64,000 nt of DNA. Origin: Leuctra nigra (taxonomy: Eukaryota > Arthropoda > Insecta > Plecoptera > Leuctridae). The notes beneath the pieces are model-generated. The model had not been told where the DNA came from. It did no database searches and was given only the letters and a program-made list of their open reading frames with translations. The stretch lies in the NCBI GenBank assembly GCA_934045905.1, contig OW203768.1, forward strand, positions 28,115,060-28,179,059. The letters run 5' to 3'. Within the stretch, counting starts at the first letter, position 1; the number at the start of each line of letters is the position of its first letter. Shown piece by piece: positions 10,749-49,256 of this stretch. The translations under genes were made by a program, and so were the position numbers.

Positions 10749-11766
10749 TGCCACGCCGGCGTCGTCGCCTCGGGCAGAAATAACCAGTGCCGGGCTAGCA
10801 ACAGCTGGAGATGGGTGTGGGCGGGTGATCTCGTGGTAGTTGACAAAGAGAGAGACACGACATGAGCGAGAGCAATAGGATCAGAACTAGGTGCTAGACT
10901 ATCAAGACATAAAGCTGTGATGTCCAGTTGACATTAATTATGGTTTTATTACATAACCTCAAGTGAGGAATAAATGAACAGTCAAATAAACACAACATAC
11001 AAATGATCAGAATGAGATAACAGATTACCGGGGGTTTGACCTCCTCGCGTAAATGGACTCTGTGTACAACACAGGTCGTAACCTCATCAGCTGTGTGCCT
11101 GGAGGCAACACAACACATGCAATTGAATGAATAGCAAATAAGACTGATACAATACAATGATAAATATAATAAACTCTTTACTTACACTCCTCCGTGATAA
11201 GATGCTCGCCGAATTACTTCGGACATTTACTTAAATAGAACTCGTACAGACGACGTTCTAAGATTACTGGACTTACTTAATACAATGTTGAATTTAGATA
11301 GGTTTGATGATCCGAAAAGGGTGCCCTTTCCCTGACTGCCTGACTCTCCGCGGAGACAATCCAAGTGTGGCCACACTTGATTGCAATACAAAAACTACGC
11401 AACGACAAAATACATTAACTACTCTATTTCAAGTAGGCCACAGGGGCACAATAATGATTCTGTTAACAAAGCTCAAGATTGAACCTGCAAGTAGGGGCTG
11501 GACGACCAGTCGCACTACGTTATATCCGCTACAACTTAGCGTGGTTACAATCTACATTTAAACACTACTCACGCGGCGATGTGAAGTCGACGACGGTCAG
11601 CCAGAGAAAGAGAATGAGCTCAGGTCGCCGATCCGCGAACTCGACTATCATTGACCATTGCGCATGACATCTTTTCTGCTCTAGGCGACCCTCCAAATAT
11701 GGGTACAAATGCCGGCTAATGGTAACGACTTGACGTTGGCGCCAGCGCCGAATTCAAACCGTTACA
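10749..11766 (-). repeat. 3' LTR of the Gypsy-type element
   Basis: 1018 bases with TG...CA ends on the minus strand, matching the copy at 12928-13945 wherever compared by eye. The minus-strand tract GGGGTTAACGGGGAA just outside (about 11767-11785) is a plausible polypurine primer. Confidence 0.85.
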
Positions 11767-12927: not shown

Positions 12928-13945
12928 TGCCACGCCGGCGTCGTCGCCTCGGGCAGAAATAACCAGTGCCGGGCTAGCAACAGCTGGAGATGGGTGTGGG
13001 CGGGTGATCTCGTGGTAGTTGACAAAGAGAGAGACACGACATGAGCGAGAGCAATAGGATCAGAACTAGGTGCTAGACTATCAAGACATAAAGCTGTGAT
13101 GTCCAGTTGACATTAATTATGGTTTTATTACATAACCTCAAGTGAGGAATAAATGAACAGTCAAATAAACACAACATACAAATGATCAGAATGAGATAAC
13201 AGATTACCGGGGGTTTGACCTCCTCGCGTAAATGGACTCTGTGTACAACACAGGTCGTAACCTCATCAGCTGTGTGCCTGGAGGCAACACAACACATGCA
13301 ATTGAATGAATAGCAAATAAGACTGATACAATACAATGATAAATATAATAAACTCTTTACTTACACTCCTCCGTGATAAGATGCTCGCCGAATTACTTCG
13401 GACATTTACTTAAATAGAACTCGTACAGACGACGTTCTAAGATTACTGGACTTACTTAATACAATGTTGAATTTAGATAGGTTTGATGATCCGAAAAGGG
13501 TGCCCTTTCCCTGACTGCCTGACTCTCCGCGGAGACAATCCAAGTGTGGCCACACTTGATTGCAATACAAAAACTACGCAACGACAAAATACATTAACTA
13601 CTCTATTTCAAGTAGGCCACAGGGGCACAATAATGATTCTGTTAACAAAGCTCAAGATTGAACCTGCAAGTAGGGGCTGGACGACCAGTCGCACTACGTT
13701 ATATCCGCTACAACTTAGCGTGGTTACAATCTACATTTAAACACTACTCACGCGGCGATGTGAAGTCGACGACGGTCAGCCAGAGAAAGAGAATGAGCTC
13801 AGGTCGCCGATCCGCGAACTCGACTATCATTGACCATTGCGCATGACATCTTTTCTGCTCTAGGCGACCCTCCAAATATGGGTACAAATGCCGGCTAATG
13901 GTAACGACTTGACGTTGGCGCCAGCGCCGAATTCAAACCGTTACA
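12928..13945 (-). repeat. 5' LTR of the Gypsy-type element
   Basis: 1018 bases, TG...CA on the minus strand, the partner of 10749-11766. The same short translations occur in both LTRs, consistent with near-identity and a young insertion. Confidence 0.85.
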
Positions 13946-20155: not shown

Positions 20156-20796
20156 TTTTCGGCCAACTACTGAATCCTTAAAATAGGATATCGGTCAAAG
20201 TTGATTTTGATGAACTTAAATTTAATTAAAACTTATATTGATGTTTGAAATATTCGCACACAAATAAACGTTTGAATATTTCAGATGCCTGCATTTTAAT
20301 CTATGGCAAATAGGTTCCACTATTTTAAATTTGGGTATTTTTAATTCTTTCCTTTTAAATTTGATTATTTATAAGCAAGACTAGTGTTGCAAGATGCAAT
20401 GAAAATTTTCAGAAAATTTCCAATGGTCGTTGAATATCGTTAAATGGTTTTGTTTTCTGTATTTTAATTGTTTATATGGAAAAAAAAATCATATCAATTA
20501 TTGATTATGATAAAATATAATAATTTAATTAAAAATTTTATTCAAACATATTGAAACAAATACAGTACATAGGAGTCAAATAATCATAAATCTTGCAGTT
20601 TTCATACACATTAAAACAATGGAATCAGTTTCCACAAGTAATTAAAAAAAAAATACTTTGAATTATCAAAGATGTCAATTAATCAATACATTAACATTAA
20701 AAAAACAGGACTATTTGAATACACACTACAAAGGCAAAATTAATTACATGTTCCTTAGTCAAATGCAATTACGATAGGAACAATGAAATTTAAAAT
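20156..20796 (-). other. 3' flank or UTR of the homeodomain-RT element
   Basis: AT-rich DNA downstream of the long ORF stop. On the minus strand an AATAAA lies near 20540. No long A tract or target duplication could be identified, so the 3' end of the element is not defined. Confidence 0.35.
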
Positions 20797-23700
20797 TTAC
20801 GGCAATCTGTATTGGACGTGGCCGGACACGTGTGTCACATAAATGTCTCTTGACCACCTGATTGCGTCACTTATCATTAGACGACGCATGATGTTGGTAT
20901 ATCCACTTTTAACTTTCAGTCGTCTAAACACCTCATCGTTTGCCTGCTCCCACCCACCAAGGCTGCCGACGACCACAGCGCCCACAAACACAGTGTAACC
21001 TTGGTTGCGTAACTGGATAGCGTGCGGCGAATATTTTTCAAGTTTCCGAAGACGTTGAGCGGTCATGGCCTCCAATCTGTTCTCAAAAGGAACACAGACA
21101 TCGACCACGTACGCCATCTTCTTCTCTTGGTTAATCACCACTATATCGGGCCGCTCTTCGCCCACTATCCCCGGCACGCGACGGTCCAGTGTGATGTCAC
21201 CCAGAGTATCTGGGATTGCCTGGGCTAGCCTGTTGACTATGGCGTTGTGCCTCTCTCGGATGGCGACGAACTGGGGCGGGCAGTGATTCAGCACATGTGG
21301 CAGCGTCTCATTCTGATAGCCACAGCGCCGACAACACTTGCTTCCGCCCGACACCCAACGTCTACATCCATTCAGAGGCACACAGCCCAGGCGCGCTCTG
21401 TGCACGAAGCGCCAGTCCGCGAAGCGTGTGAAGCGGCCGTCTCGCATGAAGTGGTTACTGTGCTTATGTCTTGACGTCACCTCATACACCTTGCCTTGAT
21501 CAGGTTTGGCAAGGAGGCGCTGACAGTAGAAGTCCGTGACCTGCTGACGCAGACGTCGCTGGAGGTGGCGCCTTGCCCCACCATCAATCCTCACCGGCGC
21601 CTGACCATCGTCACGACGCCCCCGCGGAATCTGGATTTCAAGTCCACCCCTCGCCTGACACCAGACCCACGATATTCCCGTCCAAGATGCAAGGCGACGC
21701 GAAGCGTTCCTGACACACGACCACGTTGTAGCAATGGTCCCGCTGTTGCGAGCAAAATGTCCGCGCATGCTCCCAGTCAAATACTCGGCCACATCGTAGT
21801 TGGAAGGATCCCGGCCAGTTTTAGAGCGGACAGCTGCCCGAAGGGTTGACCAAGCTAGCTGCCGCACAAAGACGTCATAGCATGTCAAGAGGCGGAAGCC
21901 CTGAACCAAGGTCGATATGTCCACAAGATCACTTAGAGGTAGTAGTCCTGCACCACCCATCGAGGTTGGCAAATACAAAACCTCGGCACTGACACGTTGT
22001 GGGAGGTACAACCAAGACTTGACCATTCGCTTGATTTCTCGGTCCGCCTCAGAGAGGGGAGCTTTTGCTACTCTCCCTCCTCTCAAAATGAAATCTAGCC
22101 GCGTCAAACAAAAAGTTTTTACCGCATCAATCTTCTGCCAAGGAGCAAGAGGGCTCTGGTTTATTAGTCTGACTTCGTCCGTTATGGCAGTAATTTCATC
22201 GAAGGGAGTTTGCGACACTCGAAAACCATTTGGCACACCTAAATACTGATACGTATCCCCCTCTTTCATAGCGCGAATGTTAGTTCCTTGCACTCGAAAC
22301 ACCGCGTCACCCACTCCAGATGTACCGCGGCAATCCACGTGGATAGCTGCGCATTTCGATGGGTTGAATGCGAGACCTGACCATGTGGCAGCAGACGTTG
22401 CCCTATCCAACAATAACTGAAGGTCCTCAGGAGATTTGCCCACCAACAAGAGATCATCCGCATAAGCCAATACCGAGACTTGCTGCTCATGGAGGTGATA
22501 ACCATGGCCAGATTTAGCAGCATCCAGTGAACGAAGCAACGGCTCGATGGCCAAATCAAAGACAATAGGGCTCAACGGGCACCCTTGCTTAACACCAGCC
22601 CGTATGTTAATTGGCTGAGATAATCCCGAAGATGACCTGACGACAGTAGTGTTGTCAGTATACAAGTCCTTTATAACCTCAACTAAATGCTCAGGTAAGC
22701 CGAACTCAACAAGAGTATTGAATATGTGTTGAAACGGAACTGAACCAAAAGCATTACACAGATCTAACCAAGCCATACATGTTTGCTGTTTTCGGCTGCG
22801 AGCGTGGTCCAGAATTGATTGTGCTACAAAATTATGTTCATGACACCCTTCATGTTCTAAAAAACCCTTCTGCGATGCTGAGAGTCTATCTGTTTTTGAT
22901 GCCCATAGCGTTAACCTATCAGCAATTACACCGGAGTATAGATTGCTTATAGTATCCGACAACGAGAGTGGTCGCCAACTAGTGACTTCATTCCTAGGTC
23001 CTTTCTTATAAATGAGCACTGTACGCGATCGACGCCAGCTATCCGGCACACGCTTTTCAATCAGGCATCGGTTGAATATAATAGTTACCTGAACACACGA
23101 TGGGTCCGCCAACTTCCAATCACCATAGGTAAGTCCATCCGGCCCTGGTGCAGTGTTTTTCATCCTACGAAGCCGTCGCAAGATTTCACGGGAGGTCAAT
23201 CTTGCAGTTAGCTCAGACGTATTCTCTTCAAGTGAGGGCACAAACATTGGAATATGATCCGGTTTTACACCTTGAGTGAACCCATCGTTACCCAACGTTA
23301 ATTGGAAGTGATCGACGAGCACTTGTTCTGGAATGTCACAAAAACCACCATGAACTTTATTTAAAACCTGAGCAACTGCTTTTTTACGATTAATCCTGTA
23401 CAGACGTTGCAAGTTAGCAGCCACTTGCGCCGGAGGAACCGACTCAGCTTGTTGACGTTGTCTCTGCTCCTCAAGGACCCGATGACGTCCACGATCGCGA
23501 CCAGCACCCTGACGTCCACAACCCCTTGTACCACGTCCACGAGATCCGCTGGGGACAGCTGCCATGTTTTCGGAGTCGCTCGACCTCTTCTTAGACGCAC
23601 CAAGCTCAGCCGACAAGTCGTCCACCAACGTTTGGAAAACATCCCAGGAATCCGACGCAGCATCAAACTTGTTCAGCCACCGACGTTGGAAGTCCTTCGC

Positions 23701-24435
23701 ACGTTGCCCAGGCTTGGAAACTGTGACAGGTTGAGGGGTCGTTACGACGTCGTTCACCTCCATTGTGATAGGACTAGAGGTCTGAGTGCGGACAGATGGA
23801 GTGTTTACATCTGAGCTGTCAGTATTTAATTCCTTACGCACCGGCGTACACCTCAAAAGTTGCAGTCTTCGCACGAGATCAATTTCTTCATCAGCATCAA
23901 GTGGTAGGAGCTGTGTCGATAAGTCAGACGGAGCGACCTCGTCTTCCGAGAGCGACATCCTCAGAAAGTGAGTCAATGATAGCGAGCTAGTGTTGTCAGC
24001 GCTATGCGGAGACGTAATTGGCTCACCCAGTTGCAGACCCGACGCGGGCGACGCTGCACGAATGAGCGCCTCGATACTTTCTCGCAGCGCCGCAACCCTG
24101 GGTCCTGGCTGCGGAGTACCAGGGACGTCTCCATTAATTGAACTGGAACTCACCGGTCTCATGATCTTCTCTCTCTTCCGCAACTTCGCTCGTCTGTTTT
24201 GAAACCAGACCTGCACTCGCGCCTCGCTGAGATCCAGCCTCCTACCCAGCTCCTCTCTCGCGAGCACATCTGGAAACAGATTTTCCAAGAACATCGCCTC
24301 CAACTGATGTATTTGAAAAGTCGTGAAAGTCGTCCGACATCGACGTGCCCTCTTCGGCCCCTCATCTTCATTGACGACGCCGGCGTCATCTTCGTCAAGG
24401 TCGCCAGACGGCGTCAATATACTGCTCATGTTCAT
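20797..24435 (-). CDS. Homeodomain-reverse transcriptase-endonuclease fusion
   Basis: A single uninterrupted 1212-residue ORF. Residues 11-26 are acidic. Residues 30-89 form a complete paired-like homeodomain with all core positions (R5, F8, L16, F20, W48, F49, Q50, N51, R53; [12 protein letters not shown]). Residues 297-320 are Arg/Gly-rich. Residues about 400-740 are a reverse transcriptase: [12 protein letters not shown], motif [11 protein letters not shown] (D558), [14 protein letters not shown] (658-661). A CX2CX8HX4C knuckle (C1035, C1038, H1047, C1052) is followed by RHN (1062-1064). A restriction-enzyme-like endonuclease has RPD (1095-1097), VDV (D1112) and K1131/K1134. This is the architecture of R2/R4/NeSL non-LTR retrotransposons, with a homeodomain where R2 proteins carry zinc fingers and Myb. 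All catalytic residues I can check are present. It is antisense in an elongase intron. A host gene is less likely because the RT and endonuclease look intact. Confidence 0.9.
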
Positions 24436-24635
24436 TCACTGTTTATAATATTACGATTAACTATGTTACTTAGAAATTCATTGAGATGAACATTGCAGTT
24501 CCCAAAGTCGCGCAGTTCAATAACATTACACACGCAACGATGATTCACTATAGATAGGTACACAATTAAACTGGTTGAGCGGAGCGGCTCAAGAGACGTC
24601 CGTTCACCGCGGCAGCCGAAAGAGAACTTATACAT
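24432..24635 (-). CDS. Upstream small ORF overlapping the long ORF by ATGA
   Basis: A 67-codon ORF whose TGA stop shares the bases ATGA with the start of the 1212-residue ORF. It has several Cys (for example CRGER and HRCVCN) but no recognised domain. Such overlaps permit termination-reinitiation, which some non-LTR retrotransposons use to express a downstream ORF. It could be an ORF1 relic, a translational control uORF or chance. Confidence 0.35.
24575..24592 (-). other. Hairpin in the 5' leader of the homeodomain-RT element
   Basis: TTGAGC and GCTCAA pair perfectly around a six-base loop. It lies in a GC-rich leader (24560-24630) that contrasts with the AT-rich flank beginning near 24636. 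R2-type elements often have structured self-cleaving 5' RNA, but I cannot show that fold here. Confidence 0.35.
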
Positions 24636-26521: not shown

Positions 26522-26890
26522 AACTCCTGTTTTTCGTTGTTTCCTCCTTATATTCCTGACCTCTGTCACCTCTCTCAAAATTACCTTAAAAGACAATAAC
26601 TACAAACACAACACCTAGATCTTGTGAAGAGAGTAGCTTACAAAACTGCAAGGCAATTAAAGCTATCTTAATAATGAACTCGCATTCATTATTTTGCAAG
26701 CCCTCATGCAAGGTTACTGACGCTTTCACAATCCAAGTGATAACAAACTCTCGTTTGTTATTACTTCGACCAATAAGGTATCAAAGGCAACTCTGGGCCA
26801 CAACAGTTAGTTACTACATTTCCATTGTGGAAACCAGTCTCAAGTAATCTTCAATTACAAACAACTGATTGGTTTTATTCTATTCCACAG

Positions 26891-49183: not shown

Positions 49184-49256
49184 GATCGGGTAGCTCAGTT
49201 GGTAGAGCTCTCGCCCGGCAAGTGAGAGGTCCCAAGTTCGTGCCCCGGTTCGGTCG
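49184..49256 (+). tRNA. tRNA-Ala(GGC)-like sequence, probably pseudogene
   Basis: Folds with a seven-pair acceptor (three of them G-T), D-stem GCTC/GAGC and anticodon stem CTCGC/GTGAG with GGC at 34-36. The T-stem has two mismatches (CCAAG/CCCGG), and position 33 is C not T. It sits inside a family A element, so it is likely a captured or SINE-derived tRNA rather than a working gene. Confidence 0.5.

Follow-up and report, generated by a model that had tools for sequence, protein, structure and literature searches.

Genome sequence analysis identified a retrotransposon that is quite probably a Utopia-derived element into which a host-type, paired-like homeodomain (HD) of the Q50 type has been swapped, guiding insertion to homeodomain-type sites. 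The element lies in the window, the whole stretch of 64,000 nucleotides of Leuctra nigra DNA analysed here. If this reading is true, a natural retrotransposon with a restriction-like endonuclease (RLE) has been retargeted by domain swap to the sites used by a family of regulatory proteins. How RLE retrotransposons change their targets is an open question, and it matters for the engineering of R2 for gene insertion.

Organization of the element

A single open reading frame (ORF) of 1212 codons occupies positions 20797-24435 of the minus strand, with its ATG at 24435; the plus strand in the same frame over these positions carries stops throughout. The features are as follows, all on the minus strand.

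20534-24628, minus strand: whole retrotransposon copy, 5' end at 24628 and 3' end near 20534 (...GAATAAAATT), from alignment with other copies
24436-24628, minus strand: 5' UTR, its start common to the window, L002, L004 and L007 copies
20797-24435, minus strand: ORF of 1212 codons, from the open frame and a second intact copy
24169-24348, minus strand: HD, paired-like, Q50 (residues 30-89), from Pfam PF00046 and PDB matches to ALX4, aristaless and DUX4
24037-24120, minus strand: post-HD linker motif of 28 residues (106-133), the motif start being common to a finger-like sister family
22234-23007, minus strand: reverse transcriptase (RT; residues 477-734), Pfam PF00078
22453-22464, minus strand: YADD catalytic motif (residues 658-661), A-D-D columns invariant
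21280-21333, minus strand: CX2CX8HX4C knuckle (residues 1035-1052), read directly and conserved in alignment
21031-21150, minus strand: RLE core, PD...D (residues 1096-1135), from alignment with R2 proteins; P, D and D columns invariant
20495-20500, minus strand: TAATTG in the downstream flank of the window copy, with AATTG at +31 from the insertion point

Homeodomain (residues 31-87, E 2e-19) and RVT_1 (residues 477-734, E 3e-33) are the two Pfam families recognized in the ORF at E values up to 1. The YADD, CX2CX8HX4C and PD...D motifs are directly readable in the protein. The best relatives of solved structure are R2 proteins, matching over residues 341-839 and weakly over 1031-1176 at the endonuclease end, and an AlphaFold model of residues 13-1212 likewise resembled R2 structures most closely (9nl2, E 2.4e-48; 9nl3; 9dou; 8gh6). 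The HD was not confidently modelled, being a low-confidence region in this model and poor in an HD-only model, and its identification therefore rests on sequence: the domain is complete, with WFQNRRAK and with Q50, N51 and R53. The architecture given in the preliminary description, a 1212-codon ORF with a Q50 homeodomain, a YADD RT, a CX2CX8HX4C knuckle and a restriction-like endonuclease, was thus confirmed by Pfam and the R2 alignment, the strand being minus.

The 5' UTR gave no Rfam match up to E 5, and a 5' ribozyme of known type, or any other Rfam family there, was accordingly rejected. The window copy is inserted antisense between an ELO-domain exon (19864 onward) and an ELO-like stretch near 26869, the latter recognized by eye. 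Elsewhere in the window, positions 49184-49256 gave a tRNA-family match scoring above the Rfam gathering threshold, and identical direct repeats at 10749-11048 and 12928-13227, 2179 bp apart with integrase-like frames between them (by eye), look like the remnant of an LTR element.

Dispersed copies and conservation of the homeodomain

A protein search of the 536-Mb genome gave at least 41 matches; 38 of 8169 first-look candidates were scored, and the counts below are lower bounds. A second copy on another contig (C3:31437688) retains an intact 1212-codon ORF, 99% identical to that of the window, and the HD is kept in six copies of the family (window, C3:31437688, C12, C4, C3:44.6 Mb and C13). 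Since the window, L002, L004 and L007 copies all start within 2 nt of one 5' end, 193 nt ahead of the ATG in the window and upstream of the HD, the HD is part of the unit that moves. Target-site duplications (TSDs) were found in 4 of 10 copies examined: 26 bp in L002, ending ...TATATAATTG; 32 bp in L021/L019; about 150 bp with one indel in L004; and 15 bp with 22 extra bases in L030/L003. Among the same 10 copies no TSD was evident for the window, L009/L006, L062, L063 and L064, and the comparison for L007/L008 gave weak matches only. The main-group copies are about 99% identical to one another. As judged from these dispersed copies, several of them with TSDs, the window element is a recently active non-LTR retrotransposon.

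The co-occurrence of the HD and RT halves in dispersed copies, proposed as a check in the preliminary description, was seen in this family and also in a diverged second family. At C11:13547245 a 690-residue open frame runs from an HD through the same linker into the beginning of an RT, where a nested unrelated LINE interrupts it. The locus has a duplicate about 110 kb away (99.97% identical) and a degenerate relative at C1:65730814 (L039; DNA 93-96% identical). Tandem repeats of about 171 bp (L061:1-1884), with TAATTG in some units, reach the start of this family-2 HD ORF and may be either 5' UTR monomers or a satellite target. The window family and family 2 are 52% identical over the first 200 residues and 57% within the HD, and both keep WFQNRRAK. 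Compared between the two families, the Nei-Gojobori dN/dS is 0.17 in the HD, where dS is close to saturation at 1.9, and 0.34 in the linker that comes after it. By this measure, family 2 carries a homologous and constrained HD.

The HD might instead be a decaying passenger, acquired in a single capture and preserved by recent amplification without being needed. Between the window and C13 copies it is the fastest part of the protein (73% amino acid identity, or 27% of residues differing, vs 96% for residues 207-1212; dN/dS 0.58), and the C13 HD, with its recognition helix unchanged, has a one-residue deletion directly after the helix. The main-group copies, being so nearly identical, are little informative on this point. 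Against this stands the retention of WFQNRRAK, at the low dN/dS given above, by two families at near-saturated synonymous sites, which makes a mere passenger highly improbable. The C13 copy itself (C13:45458571-45462859; L030, L003) is a mosaic, 83% identical to the window copy over residues 1-207 and 96% over the remainder, with 636 bp between its two pieces; an N-terminal exchange between subfamilies may account for this pattern.

An accidental fusion to a host exon, or an assembly join, is a negligible alternative, ruled out by the intact second copy, the same junction in six copies on different contigs and the 5' end common to four of them; moreover, no intron interrupts the element's HD, whereas several exons of host HDs stop partway through the domain. 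The preliminary description would have taken the fusion as accidental if related copies lacked the HD and this one stood next to an assembly join or an exon of a host homeobox gene; this is not so within its own family, and it is the closest other family that is without an HD.

Sequences flanking the insertion points

Searches with the 3' end gave 15 and 14 places, and all 14 first-look candidates were scored each time. Twelve 3' junctions were usable, after exclusion of C9:8757751 (3'-truncated) and C13:51315228 (part of the L065 copy); C8:1268859 (L074), with a 3' UTR 71% identical, was held separate. Tail T-runs were stripped where no TSD fixed the end, GTTGTTTT was counted as tail in L008, and the A-run of L065 was trimmed. 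The TAAT hypothesis had been set in advance by the preliminary description; the 40-bp span and the cluster at +30 to +35 were picked after looking.

TAAT occurs 23 times in the flanks against 9.4 expected from AT-matched windows (p 0.0003), and in the same test on the 12 junctions the counts of TTAA, AAAT, AATA, TATA and ATAT were not significantly raised. In unbiased scans of the 40 bp downstream, AATT ranked top of 136 4-mers (12 of 12 sites vs 4.8 expected, p 3e-6), AATTG top of 512 5-mers (9 of 12 vs 1.4 expected, p 1.5e-7) and TAATTG top of 2080 6-mers (5 of 12 vs 0.4 expected, p 1.7e-5); three sites have AATT without AATTG. AATTG is part of the Q50 homeodomain site TAATTG, and passages of PMC12636397 give TAATTA as the monomer site that the Q50 paired-like HD of ALX4 binds with high affinity. 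Paired-dimer sites were rejected as the main signal, with no TAATN2ATTA and with TAATN3ATTA once in 40 bp and twice in 100 bp (unadjusted p 0.04 and 0.015). The steering to TAAT-rich homeobox sites proposed in the preliminary description thus appears, by junction statistics, to hold for TAAT-type sites; homeobox genes gave no sign of being insertion targets, the sites being single homeodomain-type sites in dispersed DNA.

The excess is confined to +0 to +36, with none at +36 to +72 (236 kb background). AATT starts at +20 to +36 in 10 of the 12 sites vs 2.4 expected, and plus-strand AATTG falls within one 6-bp span (+30 to +35, post hoc) in five sites, the maximum in 4000 simulations being four. 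The distance of the motif from the insertion point varies from +1 to +35. Tests against dinucleotide-shuffled versions of these flanks gave a concordant result, also without the window and L007/L008, and no homology was detected among the 12 flanks. The lone diverged copy, L074, has TAATTG at +37. On the 5' side, 10 sites showed no excess adjoining the insertion (AATT 3 vs 3.9 expected), and AATTG was present 36-72 bp upstream in 4 of 10 vs 1.3 expected (unadjusted p 0.03).

An unrelated poly-A LINE was used as control (20 of 41 listed places and the copy in L061, the flank L085 retaining some A-tail). In the first 40 bp of these 21 flanks AATT, AATTG/CAATT and TAATT/AATTA were found in 6, 4 and 3, vs 12, 9 and 9 of 12 for the HD family (Fisher 5e-5, 0.0025 and 0.0009). 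The control LINE (L061:3994-5772; 41 places listed) is itself very recent, with a poly-A end and dozens of copies 99-100% identical. In the finger-like sister family the motif was present in none of three junctions, too few to separate the HD from the body of the element; two further sister places (L075, L076) have no intact 3' end.

HD-guided targeting is, by these junction sequences, statistically well supported. It is possible, though unlikely, that the HD, genuine and conserved like the element itself, acts on the element's own promoter or RNA, on chromatin or in nuclear import, the preference for AATT coming from the endonuclease/RT part. The sister control for the body's own preference comprises three junctions, and the variable distance of the motif also favours such a role. 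On the other hand, the top k-mers of the unbiased scans match a Q50 homeodomain site, they lie mostly 20-36 bp from the nick and not at it, and the sister family has none in three.

In the mechanism of HD-guided insertion, the HD would dock on a TAATTG/TAATTA-type site in host DNA and bring the protein there, and the endonuclease would nick mostly about 20-35 bp upstream of the HD site and prime reverse transcription. The HD-bound subunit may also set the second-strand cut; since the TSD of L002 stops exactly after TAATTG, second-strand cleavage at the HD-bound end would fit. In vertebrate R2 structures the N-terminal domains contact DNA upstream of the nick, and for silkworm R2 a downstream site is mentioned for the zinc finger (ZnF) and Myb domains (passages of PMC12180492). 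The swap of targeting domain would have shifted the lineage to homeodomain-type sites. It is reasonably likely, altogether, that a LINE captured the HD of a developmental factor and picks its sites through HD-binding sites, with most nicks some 20-35 bp upstream of TAATTG/TAATTA, and that the HD plus linker later recombined onto a second, finger-type backbone.

Origin of the N-terminal module and comparison with known systems

Among PDB entries the HD is most similar to DUX4 (two domains), ALX4 and aristaless, and host HD exons of the same genome are up to 66% identical to it (L040, L041); L041 and L043 resemble homeobrain and rx. In the host genes L041, L043, L047 and L049 the match stops inside the HD, as at an intron, and in L040 it continues through. 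The element's HD has no such break, which would fit the capture of a spliced RNA or of a gene without introns.

The nearest RT relative in the same genome is the sister family of L010 (with L018, L025, L027 and L029), 48-53% identical over matched parts. Cys/His finger-like motifs were read by eye in its N-terminus (L067, L027), Pfam recognizing no zinc finger or other family in the N-terminal piece of L067; this miss and the upstream AATTG count are without bearing on the main tests. Pfam recognized no zinc fingers in P0012 or P0016, and only below the cut-off in L069 and P0014. In residues 1-330 of the window element, which have few cysteines, nothing but the HD rose above the cut-off. The sister family has GSPLPGPNVAALRASLEA after its finger-like motifs, and the HD families have an 18-residue motif and GTPKPGPKVAALRENMEA directly after the HD; these linkers match in one-against-one BLAST (E 3e-6 and 3e-5). 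The HD therefore sits upstream of a linker shared with an HD-less element, and this arrangement, together with the second HD family, supports the earlier proposal that a captured host homeodomain replaced the N-terminal module. The DNA-reading module would have been exchanged for the HD upstream of a retained linker, the order of modules in time being what we infer. In family 2 the HD-type linker runs through a GR-rich stretch and is followed by another WLERLE linker. Compared over spans that overlap but differ in extent, this second linker has 51% identity with L010 and 43% with the window element; the two linkers suggest that the HD module was recombined onto a second backbone.

A database search for RT relatives gave 290 hits, of which the best 120 were used. 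By eye, 14 of the 18 relatives inspected have Cys/His finger-like motifs within the first 330 residues. With an HMM built from the HDs of this genome, no HD was detected in the 123 RT relatives among the matches listed (P0001, P0009-P0130; several are fragments), the seven hits being ordinary homeobox proteins (P0002-P0008). These searches could overlook HD-bearing relatives outside this species, since the linker (residues 88-340) found nothing at E 0.01 and homeobox proteins dominate the search with residues 1-500.

A quick RT-RLE tree of 61 rows was drawn from 124 trimmed rows (of 128) and three outgroups (P0011 not entered, L024 too short), with database rows named as Utopia from the species list of PMC4640811. 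In this tree L010 is sister to the window element (SH-aLRT 99); around them stand ant, sawfly, turtle and other relatives, and a further family of the same genome (L011-L017) falls within the group. A U2 snRNA match lies 3' of the element in four of the seven loci of that family (L012, L013, L015, L016), and in L013 the element-U2 join at GTTCTTATCAG fits the Utopia site of PMC4640811. The RT of the window element is, by its tree position, within the Utopia clade of the R2 group, so that the RT phylogeny proposed at the outset identifies a Utopia-clade derivative. A U1 snRNA match (L022:3968-4130) adjoins a truncated Utopia-type copy. A U2-like target for the HD family was ruled out: no U2 match was found in the loci of five copies (L002, L004, L006, L008, L019), and the 12 junctions are without the U2 site, L006 alone beginning with the U2-like CCTTCTGTTCT.

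The kind of element is known, and the homeodomain as its targeting module was found nowhere in the literature searched. In agreement with the preliminary description, which knew of no non-LTR element of this architecture, no homeodomain LINE was found among the papers listed for homeodomains and retrotransposons in the open-licence literature; the term "homeo" is absent from the main text of PMC4640811 and from other papers on this retrotransposon group searched for it. The capture of a host regulatory DNA-binding domain by a retrotransposon is the reverse of the usual route of domestication. Relatives with different N-terminal modules occur together in this genome, namely a U2-inserted family, a dispersed finger-like sister and HD families with a predicted site, and whether this module alone sets the target is therefore directly testable.

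The element shares with Utopia a single ORF with RT, CCHC and RLE, an RT-RLE body nested in the clade, and a U2-inserted family in the same genome. It differs in its HD, where Utopia proteins carry between one and three zinc fingers at the N-terminus (some lineages also a protease or RNase H), in its dispersed homeodomain-type sites instead of U2 snRNA genes, and in TSDs of 15 to about 150 bp, none being reported for arthropod Utopia in the passages concerned of PMC4640811. By its RT placement the element is Utopia-derived, yet it lacks two defining features of the clade, the fingers and the U2 target. R2 proteins are the closest solved relatives by sequence and fold and likewise have N-terminal DNA-binding domains ahead of RT-CCHC-RLE; the window element lacks their ZnF plus Myb (by Pfam) and, with dispersed junctions, their 28S target. 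BLAG, the non-site-specific R2-like elements of German cockroach, are likewise dispersed RLE elements without Myb, and recombination between their N-terminal modules has been published (PMC7650587), but they have zinc fingers and belong to a different clade. Membership in BLAG was ruled out by the position outside in the tree, and 28% identity to the window element, of L073, a BLAG-like copy of the same genome (published motifs matched by eye) with an open frame of about 1088 residues. With the paired-like Q50 factors ALX4 and aristaless the element shares Q50, WFQNRRAK and the matching type of site, and it differs from them in that its HD is intronless and fused to a retrotransposon protein.
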